A stretch of DNA of 36,122 nucleotides from a virus. Within the stretch, counting starts at the first letter, position 1, and the number at the start of each line of letters is the position of its first letter. The position numbers and the translations under genes are program-made. Shown one piece after another: positions 26,371-35,582 of the stretch. Under the pieces are notes generated by a model. It worked only from the letters and a program-made list of their open reading frames with translations, made no database searches and was not told where the DNA came from. The stretch is taken from IMG/VR virus record IMGVR_UViG_3300042507_001126, positions 1-36,122 of that record. The stretch is one strand, 5' to 3'.

Positions 26371-26595
26371 TTACTCTGTTGTTTCAGGCGGTACTTCTAG
26401 TGCGACTTCTTCAATGACCACCACAGGAGCAGTCACGTTGTACTTCTTCAGCAAAGCCAAGGCAATGGCTTCGGCTGTGTCGGGTTGAGCAGTGGCCTGT
26501 GCAAGCTCACTAGCGTCCACCACCATGCCACGGGCAACAAGATCAATGTCACCGTAGCTGGTCACAATTGCTTCAATTGCGTCAGATAGTTTCAT
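26371..26595 (-). CDS. Hypothetical small tail-region protein
   Basis: The start at 26595 (MKLSDAIEAIVTSYGDIDLVARG) overlaps the stop of the second tail tube gene by one base (TGATG); an upstream ATG at 26649 would lie inside that gene. The 74-residue product ends in an acidic Val/Glu/Pro tail, like the small protein at 15547-15741. Function unknown. Confidence 0.65.
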   Translation of the reverse strand: MKLSDAIEAIVTSYGDIDLVARGMVVDASELAQATAQPDTAEAIALALLKKYNVTAPVVVIEEVALEVPPETTE

Positions 26596-27113
26596 CAGTT
26601 GTTCGACCAGCCGTACTGGTTGCCCCGAGGATGAATTGTGAACATACATTTGGCTTCTGCGCCGGGAGCAGCGTCAATCTGGAATTGACCAACGCGACCG
26701 TTAAACGCATAAGCGATAGTGTTTGTGCCTTCCACTGCTGCAACCACAAAAGTGCGGTCAACAACACCAGAGTACGCATCTGAACGAATTTGCAACAAGG
26801 CTGCGTCAGCAGGGTTCCAAGCAGCCGTAATGGTCATGCTTGTAGGAGCCGCTTGCACAGGAATTTTGTCGCTTTGACGAGAGCCAGCAACACCGAAACT
26901 TGCTACAGCATCGTCCATACCAAAGGCAGGGATAGCCTCAACAGGAACAGCAACACCAGCAGCGCCTGTACCGCCAGCAGAAGTACCAACAATCGTAGCA
27001 ACTTGTGCAGACCAAACAGACAGGTTTGCTGTAGTCAAAGGTGTTGGCGTAGCCGCTGATTGCATAAACAGCGATGCGCTAAAACCGGGAAGAACTTTTG
27101 CAGGGATAGCCAT
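26595..27113 (-). CDS. Major tail tube protein paralog 2
   Basis: A 172-residue protein closely matching the gene upstream (27123-27617). Both start MA(L/I)PxKVLPGFSA, share PVEAIPAFG, DDAVASF, GSRQSDKIPVQAAPTSM, AWNPAD, RSDAYSGV and end FTIHPRGNQYGWSNN. Differences lie mainly in residues 30-55, where this copy has a longer Gly/Ala-rich loop (VGTSAGGTGAAG). It has its own strong ribosome binding site (AAGGAG). Probably part of the tail tube or its decoration. Confidence 0.8.
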   Translation of the reverse strand: MAIPAKVLPGFSASLFMQSAATPTPLTTANLSVWSAQVATIVGTSAGGTGAAGVAVPVEAIPAFGMDDAVASFGVAGSRQSDKIPVQAAPTSMTITAAWNPADAALLQIRSDAYSGVVDRTFVVAAVEGTNTIAYAFNGRVGQFQIDAAPGAEAKCMFTIHPRGNQYGWSNN

Positions 27114-27122
27114 GATGACTCC

Positions 27123-27617
27123 TTATGCGTTGTTGGACCAACCGTACTGGTTGCCACGTGGATGGATGGTAAATGTTGCCTTGGCTTCTGCGCCGGGAGC
27201 AGAATCAATTTGAAACTGGCCTACGCGCCCGTTAAAGGCGTAATAAACGATGTTTGTTCCCTCTGTAGCCGAGATGATGAACGTGCGGTCAATCACGCCA
27301 GAATAGGCATCAGAACGCATCAACAGCAAGTTGGTATCAGCAGGATTCCATGCGGCAGTAATGGTCATGGAAGTTGGAGCAGCCTGAACGGGGATCTTGT
27401 CAGATTGACGCGAACCCGCCACGCTGAAACTAGCCACAGCATCATCTTGACCGAAAGCAGGGATTGCTTCGACAGGAATCAGGTTTCCGCTAACAGCAAG
27501 AGGGGACACACTAGCGACCAAGGACAACTGAGCAATTGTCAAAGGAGTAGGTGTGGCTCCGGGCTGTGCGTACAACGCTGCGCTAAAACCGGGGAGAACT
27601 TTGTTTGGTAAAGCCAT
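27123..27617 (-). CDS. Major tail tube protein paralog 1
   Basis: A 164-residue beta-rich protein in the place of the major tail tube gene, after the tail terminator. The close tandem copy is downstream with only nine bases between. Nucleotide differences between copies are often silent, so both are under protein-level selection. GAAGGA precedes the ATG. Tube role inferred from position, size and copy relation. Confidence 0.8.
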   Translation of the reverse strand: MALPNKVLPGFSAALYAQPGATPTPLTIAQLSLVASVSPLAVSGNLIPVEAIPAFGQDDAVASFSVAGSRQSDKIPVQAAPTSMTITAAWNPADTNLLLMRSDAYSGVIDRTFIISATEGTNIVYYAFNGRVGQFQIDSAPGAEAKATFTIHPRGNQYGWSNNA

Positions 27618-28425: not shown

Positions 28426-29097
28426 TCACATGACAAGTGGTTTGTAATTTCTTAAAAGCGTTGTCACGCCAAAAGGAATATCTTTTAATTGACCGGATGT
28501 TGAATTTGAACGGTTGTTGTACAAATGCGTGAGCAACAACAACCCTGCTTGCTTGATAACAGGGTAAGCAGACAACGGGTTAGACACAGTTGTGTACAGC
28601 ACATTGATTGGCGCAGTCATCACCGAATTAACATCAGTTGGCAAGTTGTTAACAATGACTTTGTTGCCAGATGGATCGTAGTAATAGCTTGTGCTTGCAA
28701 GTGTTGTAAACACAGGCGGAAAAGCATCATTCCAGTAACCAACCGAATTGATTGTTACACCGGGCTGATTGTTGTAAAGGTTCTGGCTAACTTCTGGCAA
28801 ATCAAGACTGATAGGCGATGCCACAAGGCTTTCTGAGCCGTAGAAAACCCGATAGCTTACCGGGAAGATGGACATCCCTAAGTAGTCTTCAATTGCTTGT
28901 CGTGTTGCCAGTTCAAGAGAAGACAGATAGGTATCTTGGCTTTCGTCTTGAAACAGGTTTAGCTGTTGCGTGATTTCATCAAGCGTCAACCAAGGTGTGA
29001 CACTATCACGATCAATCTGTTCAACCTTTGCGTAGTTAAACGGATTGCGTGTTTGCGCCCCAAAAGGCGCAGCGTATTGATAGTTGTCAACGCTCAT
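28426..29097 (-). CDS. Head-tail connector (gp6-like adaptor)
   Basis: A 223-residue protein. The helical start WLTLDEITQQLNLF..DTYLSSLELATRQAIEDYLGM is the adaptor signature of HK97 gp6 / SPP1 gp15-type connectors, followed by a beta insertion and a C-terminal helix PVIKQAGLLLLTHLYNNRS. It binds below the portal. It starts two bases after the second capsid gene. Confidence 0.82.
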   Translation of the reverse strand: MSVDNYQYAAPFGAQTRNPFNYAKVEQIDRDSVTPWLTLDEITQQLNLFQDESQDTYLSSLELATRQAIEDYLGMSIFPVSYRVFYGSESLVASPISLDLPEVSQNLYNNQPGVTINSVGYWNDAFPPVFTTLASTSYYYDPSGNKVIVNNLPTDVNSVMTAPINVLYTTVSNPLSAYPVIKQAGLLLLTHLYNNRSNSTSGQLKDIPFGVTTLLRNYKPLVM

Positions 29098-29099
29098 GT

Positions 29100-30140
29100 T
29101 TAAGTCTCAATAGAACGAACACCAGCAAAAACGTCACGAACAGTGCTGACCATACGCTTTTCAGCGTACAGCGTCACAAAACCGGGGGTTGTTTGTTCCA
29201 TTGCCTGAACAGTCATTTCTTCCACATCGGCAATCGTCATGAAACGAGGCCAGTTGGCAAGGTAGATTGGTTTTGCGCCAACAGTACCAATAGGATCAAG
29301 GTAAGGGTTTGGAATCACAGGGAAACCAAACACATGCAGCAAAGAACCAGCTTCTTCTGAGCCTGTTTCAACAAAGCTGTATGCGCCGTTTTGGTGAGCG
29401 TATTTACGCAGGGTCTGAATGGCAGATGGGTGCATCATCCAAGCAGTACCGGGCATAGACCAGTATTGACCCGGCAACGCATTAGCCATGTCAACCAAGG
29501 TTTCCATCTCTAGCTGCAAGTTGTTAAAGCCAACAGAAGCAATCGTATGGCGACCATTGGTGATAGCTGTACCGCTAGTGCCAAAAGCAGCAGAAGCGCC
29601 AGCAGCGCCGGGGTAGCTGTTCAAGCCACGCAAGCCATCAGTGCCACCAGTCGATGTAGTGGTAGAACCTGCTTGGTCATTGTTAAGTCCAGCAGATGCG
29701 CCTTCCAACTGAGCAAATTCCATCATCAGGTCTTCAACCAATGTGGCATCCAAACCGTTTACATCTGTCAACACAGCCGAGCGAACGGGCAGTTGTGCAG
29801 AAATAACGCGAGTAGGCAATTGCCAGATGCTTGTGTCAATGTTGGGAGAGCCACTATTGGGGTTGACTGTGTAGCCCCAAGGGTTTGTGCTGTTAGCAGC
29901 GTTACCAGTCTTGGCAACAAACTGAACAGCAGAATTTCCGGGTACTTTGATGTTTCGTGCGACTAGGCGAAACGGGTTCGCATAACGCAGAGTAGCAAAA
30001 GCATCATCAAAGTGAGTGCGACCACCGACATTCAGTCCTGAACCAGTGATAGCAGATGCCTCGCGCAAGTCGATTTTGACTTGATCGCCAGTTTCCAATG
30101 TTTGCTTAATTCCAGACAGGATGCGTTCGGTAATGGTCAT
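29100..30140 (-). CDS. Second HK97-fold capsid paralog, lacking the delta domain
   Basis: A 346-residue capsid-like protein aligning to the upstream capsid gene from REASAITG (residue 26; residue 105 in the other). Shared pieces include FA(T/A)LR(Y/L)ANP, KTGNA, DTSIWQL, GLxAxxV(E/D)DxxxEFAQ, NNDQA, GGT(D/N)GLRGL, AAFGTSGT and the end PGF(V/I)T..EKR. The N-terminal scaffold part is missing. It may occupy vertices, decorate or co-assemble. It has its own AGGA and sits just beyond a strong terminator. Confidence 0.85.
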   Translation of the reverse strand: MTITERILSGIKQTLETGDQVKIDLREASAITGSGLNVGGRTHFDDAFATLRYANPFRLVARNIKVPGNSAVQFVAKTGNAANSTNPWGYTVNPNSGSPNIDTSIWQLPTRVISAQLPVRSAVLTDVNGLDATLVEDLMMEFAQLEGASAGLNNDQAGSTTTSTGGTDGLRGLNSYPGAAGASAAFGTSGTAITNGRHTIASVGFNNLQLEMETLVDMANALPGQYWSMPGTAWMMHPSAIQTLRKYAHQNGAYSFVETGSEEAGSLLHVFGFPVIPNPYLDPIGTVGAKPIYLANWPRFMTIADVEEMTVQAMEQTTPGFVTLYAEKRMVSTVRDVFAGVRSIET

Positions 30141-30163
30141 AACAGTTCCTAAATTATTGGCAC

Positions 30164-30190
30164 AAAAAGGAGGGGCATTTACGCCCCTCC
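30164..30190 (-). terminator. Strong terminator between the two capsid genes
   Basis: On the minus strand an 8-bp GC-rich stem (GGAGGGGC/GCCCCTCC, plus 30183-30190 and 30169-30176, loop of 6) is followed by five T. It begins seven bases after the stop of the first capsid gene. It should lower transcription of everything downstream compared with the first capsid gene. Confidence 0.85.
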
Positions 30191-30196
30191 AATTTA

Positions 30197-31546
30197 TCAG
30201 GTAGCTGTACCTGTCGAGCGATAACGCACCAGAGCGTTAGGATCGCGCACAGAAGTTGCCAAACGCTTCTCACCAAAGAAGGTGATGAAACCGGGCAATG
30301 TCTGGTCATAACGGCGCATGACCATGTTCAACCTGTCTATGATTGAATGTGCCCGTGTCCAGTCACCAAAGTACATTGGGTACAGGCTAGTTGTGCCAGC
30401 AGTACCAGTTGTAGCTTGGCTAGGATTGTCCAAGTAACGGTTCATCACCACATCAAAGCCGAGCATTTGACCAATGATGCCATCAGGGTTCAACGACTCA
30501 GTAGAGTTGAAGATTGGACGGCCATTAGTGTCTTGCAGACCACGGATTGCTTGAGCCAAGATTGGGCTGACCATAAACTTGGTGTTAGGAGTCCAATACT
30601 GTTGTGGCAAAGCGTAGATCGTGTTGATAACGTCTTTGTACTGGATGTTGTTAGCACCCACAGTGTTGGCGTTGGTGGTGATCTGGTCGTAAGTAGCCAG
30701 CGAATGCAGACCGCTTGTAGAGCCAGTACCAGAAGTGCCAAAGGCAGCAGCAGTAGAAGTACCACCAGCGTAGGTAGCAGCAGCACCAGCGTATTGATCC
30801 AAACCACGCAGACCGTTAGTACCACCGTAGGGGTTGGTGCTAGATTGAGCAGCTTGGTCATTGTTCTGGATCATTGACAGGGCTTCAGCTTGAGCGAACT
30901 CAGCCAGCATATCGTCAACCACGTTGGCTTCCAGACCGTCAATATCATCCAAAGCCGCAGTACGGATTGGGAACTGAACGTTCAGATCTTGCAAAACCAA
31001 TTGCCAGATGCTTGTGTCTTCAGTAGTGGTTGCACCGTTGTTCTGAATTGCATAGCCCCAAGCCACACCAGCGTTGCCAGTCTTGACACGGAATTGATAG
31101 CTAGAACCATCAGTAGCCACAGTACGCGACAGACCACGCATAGGGTTAGCCAAACGCAGAGCAGCAAACACAGGATCGTAGCCAGTACGACCACCCTTGC
31201 CATCACCGCCAGCGGTCAGAGCAGAGGCTTCTTTCAGGTACGCATCCATTTGGGCTTCGTCTGCAAAGATTTGCAGTTCTTTTTCCAGACGGTTGTTGCC
31301 TTTGTAGAAGGTAGCCAGTTGCTCTTTGACAGAACGGTTCACATCTTGGCGAACAGTTTTGGCAGGAGTGCGAATGAACTCAGGCATATTGATAGAAGCA
31401 ACTTTGGCTTCCAGAGCAGAAACAATTTCGCTGAATTCAGCTTTGACAGCCTCAACAGCAGCAGGGATTTTGGCTTCAACAGCAGAGATACCTTCGGCTT
31501 GTTTAGCTTCGATGGCATCCAATTTTTCGAGGATAACTTGAGACAT
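30197..31546 (-). CDS. Major capsid protein, HK97 fold with delta domain
   Basis: A 449-residue protein, closest to the classic HK97-type layout. Residues 1-50 are coiled coil (KLDAIEAKQAEGISAVEAKI), and the scaffold-like delta domain runs to about 104, where the S78 protease probably cuts. The HK97 fold follows (YDPVFAALRLANPMRGLSR; FPIRTAALDDIDGLEANVVDDMLAEFAQ; PGFITFFGEKRLATSVRDPNALV). It follows the protease gene by three bases and has AAGG before the ATG. The terminator after it suits very high expression. Confidence 0.93.
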   Translation of the reverse strand: MSQVILEKLDAIEAKQAEGISAVEAKIPAAVEAVKAEFSEIVSALEAKVASINMPEFIRTPAKTVRQDVNRSVKEQLATFYKGNNRLEKELQIFADEAQMDAYLKEASALTAGGDGKGGRTGYDPVFAALRLANPMRGLSRTVATDGSSYQFRVKTGNAGVAWGYAIQNNGATTTEDTSIWQLVLQDLNVQFPIRTAALDDIDGLEANVVDDMLAEFAQAEALSMIQNNDQAAQSSTNPYGGTNGLRGLDQYAGAAATYAGGTSTAAAFGTSGTGSTSGLHSLATYDQITTNANTVGANNIQYKDVINTIYALPQQYWTPNTKFMVSPILAQAIRGLQDTNGRPIFNSTESLNPDGIIGQMLGFDVVMNRYLDNPSQATTGTAGTTSLYPMYFGDWTRAHSIIDRLNMVMRRYDQTLPGFITFFGEKRLATSVRDPNALVRYRSTGTAT

Positions 31547-31549
31547 GAT

Positions 31550-32347
31550 TTAACCTTTAAGACGTTTATCAAGGAGTTTCAGAAGTTCACGTTGCTCTAA
31601 AGCAGCGAGAATTTCAGCGGTTGCCTCCGCATCAGAATCACTCTGAATTGGCGCATTTTCAATAGGCTTTTCAACAGCATCACGCTGCTCAATCACCGTC
31701 TTGAACACAGATGCGGCGGCAACCGACATCTGCTTGGACAGACCTGCATCCCGCAAGGCTTCTTCCAATACTTTCAAATCAGCAGAGCCATCAGGTCGGA
31801 AATACTCCAACTTTTTGATTTCTGCCTTCATGTTATTGGGGTGCATGACAACGCTAGTTTCACGCAAACCACCTTTTGTGATTTGGAAATAACCATCTTC
31901 ATATGGATCAGCCGAACCAATGACCATTGCTTCACCATCAGCATCAACCATTTGATATTCTTCAGCATAAGCGCCAACAGAAACACCGCCAAACATATTG
32001 GGGCTTTCCTTCATCACTTGGTACAAATCCGAACCAGTTGTGGTGTTTAGATAGAGGCGACCAGAAGCATTCATGCCCTCGTCATCCATTTCAATGCTTG
32101 TCCACTCGCCAACAGGAATGGCATCAGCATTGTGGTTGACGTACATGGGCAATGGTCGGCCTGATGCAGCAAACTCTTTGGCCCATTGCATAAAGCCTTC
32201 TGGCTTATAAAAAAACTTGCGACCATCAGCGCCTTCACGTGCGCCCCAAGTCGTAATGCGAGCCTCAATCTGTCCAGACGCTTCGCCGTTGCTGGCTTTT
32301 TCGTTGAGATTCAGCTTGGCTTCGCAGATAAGATTCAATGTCTTCAT
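31550..32347 (-). CDS. HK97-type prohead protease (S78)
   Basis: A 265-residue protease. Residues 25-100 have QIEARITTWG and MYVNHNADAIPVGEWTSI, with the catalytic His72; FGGVSVGAYAEE carries Ser123; GGLRETSVVMHPNN (about 159-172) closes the core. The C-terminal third is helical and acidic. It cleaves the delta domain of the capsid during maturation. The start has AGGGG upstream. Order portal, protease, capsid is canonical. Confidence 0.9.
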   Translation of the reverse strand: MKTLNLICEAKLNLNEKASNGEASGQIEARITTWGAREGADGRKFFYKPEGFMQWAKEFAASGRPLPMYVNHNADAIPVGEWTSIEMDDEGMNASGRLYLNTTTGSDLYQVMKESPNMFGGVSVGAYAEEYQMVDADGEAMVIGSADPYEDGYFQITKGGLRETSVVMHPNNMKAEIKKLEYFRPDGSADLKVLEEALRDAGLSKQMSVAAASVFKTVIEQRDAVEKPIENAPIQSDSDAEATAEILAALEQRELLKLLDKRLKG

Positions 32348-32483: not shown

Positions 32484-33878
32484 TCAAGTAGTGCCAATGT
32501 TCATTTTTTTGGTCTGATTACCACCGCCGCCACCAGTATCTTGAGGGCTTGAGCCGGGTATGGGTTCAGCGCCTTTTGCGTCCTTAACCAGTTCATCACC
32601 ACCGTCCATAGATGGCAAATTCATGTAGTTACGGGCTTCGTTGGGGGTCATAATGCCACCTTTTACGCCAGCCGTAGCAAAGTTCATCTGATCCAAAGGC
32701 GCACCCTTCAGAAAATCCTTGGTATCAAACTCCACAGACAAACATGGATAACCATCAAACAAATGCTGCGTCAACTTCTGCTGAATATTGACAATTGTTG
32801 GGTACATCGTTGATTTATAAAACTCGTCCAACTGTGTTTGAGTGTTATTGAACTTGCTGTCAGCAACACCAATCATAGAAGGAGGCACACCAAACAAACC
32901 GCAAATCCGGCGCATCGTTTGAGCCTTCAAAGCAGCAGCGTCAGTATCCTGCAAGGTCAGCATTTCCAGCTTCTGATACTTCATGCCCTGATCCAGCAAC
33001 ATACCTTGACCCGGCTTGCTTGGGTCACTGGTCTTGCTGCCTGTCATGTTGTTCCAAGCCTCTTTCAGACGGGCTGCAATCTCTTTGTACTTGCCATCAG
33101 GAATGACCTGATCCGTCACAAACATACCAGAAGGCTTTGCGCCGTTTTGCATGACAAAGTTGGCGTACAGGTCAATGTCTTGGTCAAGACCAACCAACTC
33201 AGTCGCCAAAATCGCTTTGTTAAAACCAGCCGAACCTTGCCACGCCATTTCCTTTGTGTGCATCACTTGGAAATACTTAAAGTCATGGTCTTTGTTAAAA
33301 CCATAGCTAGGCGTAGACAATCGGAATGTCGGGTAACGTGTTGGCGTAATGGTCACGGCAATCAGCGTTGAATCCAGCACATACATTTCCAATGGAGTCT
33401 CAGTAGAACTGTTCTGGTCCTTCCTCCACCACAAGGTAAAGGCTTCACCAGACAATTCGTACCACATCAGCCACTGATACCAAAACTCGTACTTGCTCTG
33501 AAAGTTGTTTGGCGTGTTCAGCAGACGAGCAACCTGCTTGGCTTTTGCCCGGTCTCGCGCCCCAACACCTTCGCCTTTGACAGCATCAACAGTTTTACCG
33601 TCTGCCATTTCGCAGCAAATCTTGATCGGCAACTGAGCCAAAGCACGGGCTTTTACCCCTACACAGGACATGATTGTGCTGTTTCTGGTCAGCACAGACA
33701 TATCCACCGGGCGACCAGCAGTTGTGGTGCTGGCAGTGGTCACATACAGGATTTGAGTATTAACACCGGCTCTTTTATCACTACCTTGGTAAACAATGTT
33801 GTTTCCAAGGGCCGACTGGCCAAAAAGTGTATTACTTTCGGATTGCGTTTTACGCTTGAAAATGTCAAAGATTGCCAT
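32484..33878 (-). CDS. Portal protein, HK97 family
   Basis: A 464-residue portal. Starts MAIFDIFKRK; typical pieces are NSTIMSCVGVKARALAQLPIKI, LLNTPNNFQSKYEFWYQWLMWYELSGEAF, the central crown region AGFNKAILATELVGLDQDIDLYANFVMQNG and RRICGLFGVPPSMIG then NNTQTQLDEFYKSTMYPTI near the clip/wing. It ends in a Gly-rich tail (DTGGGGGNQTKK). It forms the dodecameric channel for DNA. GAGGGG precedes the ATG. Confidence 0.93.
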   Translation of the reverse strand: MAIFDIFKRKTQSESNTLFGQSALGNNIVYQGSDKRAGVNTQILYVTTASTTTAGRPVDMSVLTRNSTIMSCVGVKARALAQLPIKICCEMADGKTVDAVKGEGVGARDRAKAKQVARLLNTPNNFQSKYEFWYQWLMWYELSGEAFTLWWRKDQNSSTETPLEMYVLDSTLIAVTITPTRYPTFRLSTPSYGFNKDHDFKYFQVMHTKEMAWQGSAGFNKAILATELVGLDQDIDLYANFVMQNGAKPSGMFVTDQVIPDGKYKEIAARLKEAWNNMTGSKTSDPSKPGQGMLLDQGMKYQKLEMLTLQDTDAAALKAQTMRRICGLFGVPPSMIGVADSKFNNTQTQLDEFYKSTMYPTIVNIQQKLTQHLFDGYPCLSVEFDTKDFLKGAPLDQMNFATAGVKGGIMTPNEARNYMNLPSMDGGDELVKDAKGAEPIPGSSPQDTGGGGGNQTKKMNIGTT

Positions 33879-33902: not shown

Positions 33903-35582
33903 TTACCACTCTAGCGATCTAAAGCCAAATGAATCGCTGACAAATACGTTATCCAAATGCCCGTGAAGGGCCATAATCATAGCAATAATGCCATCAACCT
34001 TAGCTGAAGGATCTGCTTCTTCCTTGCGTATCTTTACATTGCCGTTTATATCTACATAAACAGAGCAATTGCCTAGTTGCCATCCAAGAAACGGGTTTCC
34101 ATCATGCTTAATGGCTTTCTTTAAGATAAGTTGTTCAGCAGTCTTAGACGGGTTAGACAATACAGCCATGCCTTGACCAACCTTAACAACTGGCAGTCCT
34201 TGAGCATACAAGTTAGCAACCAAAGCAGCAGCGTTGTAGGGGTCATAGTTCACAGCCTTGACACTGTGCTTTTCGCATTCCTGCTTAATGTATGACTCAA
34301 CTTCATTCAGGTCAGTCACGTTACCCGGCGTAAGCCTCAAGATTCCACTTGCATGAGCCTGTAAAAAAATGCTTTTGTAATGGTTGGGAATTAGGTCAAT
34401 AGATTCTTCCGGTAGAAAGAATTTAAACGTAGCATAAAAGTTTTCTTCACTGTACCTGTGCAAAGTACAAACAGCGTTCAAATCTCGTGTTTGTGCCAAG
34501 TCAAACGCAACAAATGTTGCTTCTGGCTTTTCAGTAGGCATAGGCGCAATAGACTCATCCCAATAGCGCCTGTCAATCCAAGCAGAGTTAGCCGAAACAT
34601 AGATGTTTAACTGCTTACACAGAAACTCGTTCAGGCTCGCTGGCTTTGCAGACGCTTCTTCAGCCATCTGCTGAATGTGCTGAGTCGTGACCGATACCCC
34701 AAGCATCGGGTTCGCTTTTCCCCATACCGCAAGGTCAGCCCAATTATCTCCGGGATCAATGCTATACAGTAGACCAAACCAGCGAAAGCTATCAGGAGCA
34801 GCGCCACGCAAGACAGTACGAAAGTGTGAAAGGTCTTCAAAGAACTTGGTTTCCTTAGTGAAGCTGGCAGTTGTCAGGTACATACGCAGCGGGTTCTTTC
34901 GAGCGCCCATACCAGAGTGCAACACCTCAATTGACTGTCTTTCAGTAATCTGAGCAGCCTCATCAATCATGGCGCAGGACGGGTTTTTACCGTCACCAGT
35001 CTTACGGTTTTCCCGTGACAGCGCACGGTAAGTAGAGGTCGAGTCGCCGGCCTTCTTCAATTCACTACGGTAAGCAATAAACTTAGCCCCTAACTCGGGC
35101 CTCATGTTTTCTACGATAGCCTTGGACGAATCAAAGCAAATAGACGCTTGATCCCGGTTGGTAGCCAGAGTAAACACTTCAGCACCAGCATCACCAAACT
35201 GCAACTCATACAGCGCAATGATGGACGCAATGGTTGTCTTGCCAGATTTGCGAGGCACGAACAAAATGACATCAGTGACATATCGGTATGTGTGGTCACG
35301 CCTGTCCCTGAACCCGTAGATACCCGCCAAGTACATAACCTGAAAAGGCTGTAGCTCAATAGGCTTTCCGGCATCCGGGCCTTTAACATGGCGACAGAAT
35401 TTGACGAATTTAAGGATGTGTTCAGCTTTGGCAGGGACAAACTCGTAAGGCGCATCCTTACGTTCGACCATATCCAAGAACCGTTGGCAAGCTAGTTTGA
35501 CATCCTCACACGCCTGAATGTCACCCCTAGTTACCGCTACCGCATACTCAAACGCAGGGTTAAGCAGTGGCGAATAGCTCAT
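33903..35582 (-). CDS. terL: Terminase large subunit
   Basis: A 559-residue packaging motor with ATPase and nuclease. Walker A VPRKSGKT (109-116), Walker B CAMIDEA (203-209), and coupling motif LTTAS at about 236. The nuclease part shows D361 in VAFDLAQTRD, D447 in NYDPYNA and D530 in KVDGIIAMIMA. Close to HK97/P27-type partners in length and order. It overlaps terS by 23 bases. Confidence 0.95.
   Translation of the reverse strand: MSYSPLLNPAFEYAVAVTRGDIQACEDVKLACQRFLDMVERKDAPYEFVPAKAEHILKFVKFCRHVKGPDAGKPIELQPFQVMYLAGIYGFRDRRDHTYRYVTDVILFVPRKSGKTTIASIIALYELQFGDAGAEVFTLATNRDQASICFDSSKAIVENMRPELGAKFIAYRSELKKAGDSTSTYRALSRENRKTGDGKNPSCAMIDEAAQITERQSIEVLHSGMGARKNPLRMYLTTASFTKETKFFEDLSHFRTVLRGAAPDSFRWFGLLYSIDPGDNWADLAVWGKANPMLGVSVTTQHIQQMAEEASAKPASLNEFLCKQLNIYVSANSAWIDRRYWDESIAPMPTEKPEATFVAFDLAQTRDLNAVCTLHRYSEENFYATFKFFLPEESIDLIPNHYKSIFLQAHASGILRLTPGNVTDLNEVESYIKQECEKHSVKAVNYDPYNAAALVANLYAQGLPVVKVGQGMAVLSNPSKTAEQLILKKAIKHDGNPFLGWQLGNCSVYVDINGNVKIRKEEADPSAKVDGIIAMIMALHGHLDNVFVSDSFGFRSLEW

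Follow-up and report, generated by a model that had tools for sequence, protein, structure and literature searches.

The freshwater phage of IMG/VR record IMGVR_UViG_3300042507_001126 encodes two HK97-fold capsid proteins, C1 and C2, from tandem genes with an intrinsic terminator between them. On balance we consider it probable, if not by a wide measure, that C1 is the major capsid protein and that C2, derived from a duplicated copy, is a dedicated minor shell protein, most likely forming the pentameric vertices. The idea of a two-component shell was already part of the original prediction, which had been made from the sequence letters, and it was strengthened by the present analysis. The structural module lies on the minus strand of the window, that is, the whole 36,122-nt stretch analyzed, in the order terminase large subunit, portal, S78 protease, C1, terminator, C2, head-tail adaptor and tail genes. 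Searches of the window for tRNA genes and Rfam families returned none. The features of the module, all on the minus strand, are as follows.

33903-35582, minus: terminase large subunit (TerL)
32484..33878, minus: portal protein (PF04860), the capsid-independent anchor for the locus search
31550..32347, minus: prohead protease (Peptidase_S78; PF04586 and PHROG head maturation protease), presumed to process both C1 and C2
30197..31546, minus: C1, 449 aa, major capsid protein with a delta-like leader (PF05065, 102.8 bits; PHROG 10 major head protein)
31232..31546, minus: N-terminal delta/scaffold-like leader of C1, approximately residues 1-105, from the alignment of 47 pairs; C2 is without one
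31187..31231, minus: C1 residues 106-120, EASALTAGGDGKGGR, putative maturation cleavage segment, its motif present in 183/183 C1 and co-varying with the C2 segment
30164..30190, minus: intrinsic terminator between C1 and C2 (9-bp stem with 7 G-C pairs, then a T-run)
30146..30150, minus: AGGAA ribosome-binding site of C2, just 3′ of the terminator, read from the sequence
29100..30140, minus: C2, 346 aa, second HK97-fold capsid paralogue and proposed minor/vertex shell protein (PF05065, 71.4 bits)
30063..30140, minus: short leader of C2, residues 1-26, with a predicted helix at 3-17 (alignment and model)
30018..30062, minus: C2 residues 27-41, EASAITGSGLNVGGR, putative cleavage segment common to C1 (sequence comparison)
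29241..29666, minus: axial (A) domain of C2, approximately residues 159-300, limits set by homology
28426..29097, minus: head-tail adaptor Ad1 (PF05135, PHROG 40), 2 nt past the C2 stop codon

The scores of both proteins against the PF05065 Phage_capsid profile are far over the cut-off of 24.2, and pairwise alignment of C1 residues 96-441 with C2 residues 19-342, spanning the whole mature region, gave 40% identity (E = 1e-67). An AlphaFold2 model of C2 that included its relatives (pTM 0.74) matched the RcGTA major capsid protein (6tb9) with a Foldseek E of 9e-17 and a VIA-align Z of 21.8; further VIA-align matches were the cf-PICI EcCI2 head protein (Z 21.5), the HK97 prohead (Z 17.7) and 1ohg (Z 16.6). 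The sequence profiles of C1 and C2, used independently, also led to proteins of the RcGTA and EcCI2 kinds, with RcGTA as the best match of known structure for each. The model of C1, from which a predicted helix at leader residues 3-50 was taken, was too poor to use (pTM 0.35), so the HK97 fold of C1 rests on its homology to C2. These results indicate that C1 and C2 are both HK97-fold capsid proteins, confirming by alignment and structure prediction, two checks the original prediction had proposed, its claim of two such genes in tandem at these minus-strand positions. As it had also held, the upstream copy alone has a delta/scaffold-like leader; at ~105-108 residues it is comparable to the ~100-residue domain that marks the HK97 subtype. 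Its placing of the C2 start at the mature domain was nearly right: C2 begins slightly upstream and has a leader of ~26-30 residues.

C1 was followed by C2 on the same strand in all 205 loci that span both genes, mostly at a spacing of 49-77 nt. The ~300 loci were collected using C2, C1, a divergent C2 and the portal as queries, and some contigs were fetched repeatedly, so that locus counts are not counts of distinct phages. Because capsid queries underlie the 205-locus set, the test was repeated from the portal gene; the arrangement portal-protease-C1-C2 was found in all 38 portal-anchored loci that extend far enough downstream, and in 4 shorter ones. We found no close relative with a single capsid gene among these loci, every non-pair locus stopping near a contig end. 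The pair thus occurs in related phage genomes, a further check that had been proposed at the outset. Bacterial genome assemblies yielded seven contigs, of which five carry the pair, C1 being truncated in one of them; the other two are truncated or not long enough to judge. One contig of this phage group (L150, JAHEYD010000010.1) was binned into an archaeal Candidatus Nitrosotalea assembly, a placement that is probably a binning error. A 76-kb record with two copies of the pair ~40 kb apart was rejected as a larger genome, being probably two genomes joined. When nearer isolates were sought in the phage collection, the cultured Methylophilaceae phage P19250A was the only match; it carries the pair, and its C2 is labeled "hypothetical protein" in GenBank. 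Our search of the openly readable literature for duplicated capsid genes in siphophages returned no description of the C1/C2 pair.

With three single-capsid outgroups included, the tree placed C1 in one group (support 87/59) and C2 in another (87/98), C1 being the nearest relative of C2; the outgroup branches are long and the root is accordingly not firm. This topology fits a single ancient duplication, before the group diversified, as the probable source of both genes. Median dN/dS was ~0.12 for C1 and for C2, indicating equal purifying selection, and together with the universality of the pair this value rules out C2 as a product of chance or a pseudogene. Mean identity over 47 pairs was 80% in C1 versus 69% in C2, a difference in keeping with major and minor roles. 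The faster divergence of C2 and its annotation only as hypothetical could also suit a protein outside the virion shell, such as an assembly factor, a decoy for capsid-sensing host defenses or a regulator. We rate this the least probable of the accounts considered, since the dN/dS of C2 is as low as that of C1 and the cleavage-like segment, which the two have in common and which co-varies between them, points to the prohead. The trees of C1 and C2 disagree in places (for example at L151, L058 and L165) and the pairwise identities of the two proteins correlate only at 0.51, which suggests that lineages may have exchanged sequence within the capsid region. A second structural duplication lies nearby: two major tail protein genes, 73% identical, stand in tandem on the minus strand (27123-27617 and 26595-27113). 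Where at least 3.5 kb was available downstream of the pair (135 loci), 97 loci had two copies and 38, P19250A included, had one; this duplication is probably younger than that of C1 and C2.

Every C1 and every C2 of 183 pairs contained the segment E-(A/Q)-x-x-(L/I)-x-(A/G)-(S/G)-G, nearly always trailed by GGR; C2 has it in the form EASAxTGSG...GGR. Judged by its position relative to the HK97 and RcGTA capsid proteins, this segment would be the point of leader removal. Within-genome agreement was scored over 190 aligned columns variable in both families, a measure from which relatedness is not fully removed, and five of the ten strongest columns were concentrated in one 10-residue stretch (C1 108-117, C2 29-38). 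A tree-aware covariation test gave 5-6 independent contrasts and 0 in the opposite direction, too few for significance. The fraction of identical codons was barely higher within genomes than between them (0.48 vs 0.44), making shared selection a likelier source of the covariation than recent gene conversion, which is unlikely as the main cause in general; in P19250A, where C1 and C2 share a run of identical codons, conversion is possible. The simplest reading of a common, co-varying segment is that one protease recognizes both proteins, and C2 is probably cleaved at the same segment as C1. The original prediction had C2 skipping protease maturation, a claim that found no support in a putative segment kept in 183/183 pairs and co-varying with that of C1. 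The comparison with T4 also argues against it, because T4 gp24 is itself cleaved: prohead cleavage takes 10 residues off gp24 and 65 off gp23 (PMC9958956), compared with leaders of ~30 residues, with the putative site, in C2 and ~108 in C1.

The two proteins have not diverged evenly. With domain limits placed by homology, C1/C2 identity was highest in the site and N-arm (61%), lower in the spine helix (50%) and the P-domain strands (44%), and lowest in the axial domain (37%, with 30% over its second half), the part that faces the middle of the capsomer. Leader aside, C2 lacks ~26 residues relative to C1, nearly all of them axial, and has ~3 extra in the E-loop; its N-arm and peripheral domain show no indels. 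This pattern is suggestive of a subunit that keeps the capsomer-capsomer contacts and is altered around the capsomer axis, and it argues weakly for a vertex role, axial domains being generally variable. Alternatively, C2 might co-assemble with C1 without a fixed vertex role, in mixed capsomers, by irregular incorporation of the kind seen in two-component encapsulins, or in special hexamers. The conserved fold and the N-arm common to both proteins would agree with this, and an irregularly tiled two-component encapsulin is known (PMC12407261); we nevertheless think it unlikely, because the strong conservation of C2 in all pair loci and the consistent shortening of its axial domain point to a single defined position. 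Family 2B two-component encapsulins resemble the pair in that two HK97-fold shell proteins are encoded together (PMC12407261), but they are bacterial compartments with irregular mixing and have no phage packaging or tail module; the relation is at the level of the fold only. Rather than an Enc1/Enc2 bacterial operon with a cargo enzyme, C1 and C2 lie between portal and protease genes on one side and connector and tail genes on the other.

The strong terminator noted between the two genes lies at 30190-30164 (GGAGGGGC-GTAAAT-GCCCCTCC-TTTTT), in a stretch that folds with z = -3.2, and it is conserved across relatives. It was kept in 81 of 82 distinct intergenic sequences, and strict criteria recovered it in 30 of 33 divergent lineages, at a median hairpin energy of -17.2 kcal/mol and with many stem sequences that differ yet stay paired. 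Over 574 kb from 47 related loci, 41 of 42 strong coding-strand terminators lay within 60 nt of the C1 stop codon, a placement that is not due to chance. A large excess of C1, as originally proposed, fits this placement, but the feature is not special to the pair: in AS1, ST64B and K256, phages with one capsid gene, a hairpin lies 4-13 nt past that gene, indicating a general device for producing major capsid protein in excess. The terminator was therefore rejected as proof of a two-component shell. In T7, the T-phi terminator likewise lies behind gene 10, which encodes the major capsid protein, and in all four phages an excess over the downstream genes is expected. Unlike in these phages, the first gene on the low side here encodes a second capsid protein, so that the terminator could set the C1:C2 ratio. 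C2 starts ~20 nt past the T-run behind its own AGGAA, which leaves little room for a promoter, and its expression probably depends on read-through. The two genes are ~645 nt apart in five loci, which come from three contigs; in one of these loci (L056, 9356-10000) the insert lies between the terminator and C2 and encodes a GIY-YIG-like endonuclease, the terminator behind C1 being retained, and L025, L033 and L106 have a gap of the same size.

This position of the C2 gene bears on two further accounts. Directly preceding the head-tail adaptor gene and probably made at the level of connector and tail proteins, C2 might serve where the head joins the tail or at the portal vertex, perhaps encircling the portal as an HK97-fold ring or adaptor. 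This is quite improbable: normal connector genes (Ad1 and the next ones) are already present downstream, and we know of no HK97-fold protein that serves as a ring or adaptor at a portal vertex. C2 might instead form an alternative or differently sized shell, or replace C1 in some particles, as its full HK97 fold and putative cleavage segment would permit. That C2 has no long delta/scaffold leader, and that its gene sits on the low-expression side of the terminator, tightly joined to the connector operon, makes this account very improbable.

If C2 is a vertex protein, transcription would run through portal, protease and C1 and mostly halt at the terminator behind C1, and read-through would yield a smaller amount of C2 along with the connector and tail proteins. 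The long leader of C1 would act as a built-in scaffold; C2 would join the prohead with its short leader and would probably be cut by the S78 protease that acts on C1, at the EASAxTG site common to both. We assumed a T=7 shell from the genome size of ~36 kb. The siphophage JBD30, with a 36.9-kb genome, has a T=7 head of 415 capsid proteins (PMC11445458), and splitting 415 subunits into hexamers and eleven pentamers gives 360 and 55, the ratio expected if C2 is the vertex protein. The read-through ratio could roughly meet this need for ~360 hexamer and 55 pentamer subunits.

Among known systems, T4 gp23/gp24 is the closest in concept: both pairs consist of two HK97-fold paralogues, thought in T4 also to have arisen by duplication, of which the minor one is without a long propeptide, and C2, like gp24, is paralogous to the major capsid protein of its own phage. 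A two-component shell of the T4 kind is the best fit with two such paralogues, once the protease-skipping part of the original prediction is dropped. T4 differs in that the C1/C2 phages have ~36-39 kb HK97-type genomes, a scaffold-like leader fused to C1, an S78-type protease and a terminator between the genes; C1 and C2 are 40% identical, compared with ~20% for gp23/gp24. In T4, gp24 forms the pentamers at eleven vertices, the position proposed here for C2. T4 chains were absent among the top 50 listed fold matches of the C2 model, which excludes nothing. HK97 and RcGTA (PF05065) share with the C1 locus the fold, the order TerL-portal-protease-capsid and the delta-like leader, but in their heads hexamers and pentamers are built from one and the same capsid protein, whereas the present genome has a second paralogue as a fixed component. 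The duplication is apparently independent of that in T4. It is conceivable, at a little short of an even chance, that this widespread freshwater siphophage group evolved a dedicated vertex protein from an HK97-type capsid protein independently of T4, with the same protease acting on both proteins and the terminator setting the hexamer:pentamer ratio.

A 2025 paper names T4 as the one virus known to divide hexamer and pentamer roles between two HK97-fold proteins (PMC12407261). The small HK97-type phages with C1 and C2 form a large natural family; their second capsid protein is ancient and present throughout. The cultured P19250A makes the split of one capsid protein into hexamer and vertex specialists directly testable, and likewise the ability of a terminator to govern shell stoichiometry. 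An unrecognized structural protein, C2, may therefore be present in many freshwater phage genomes.
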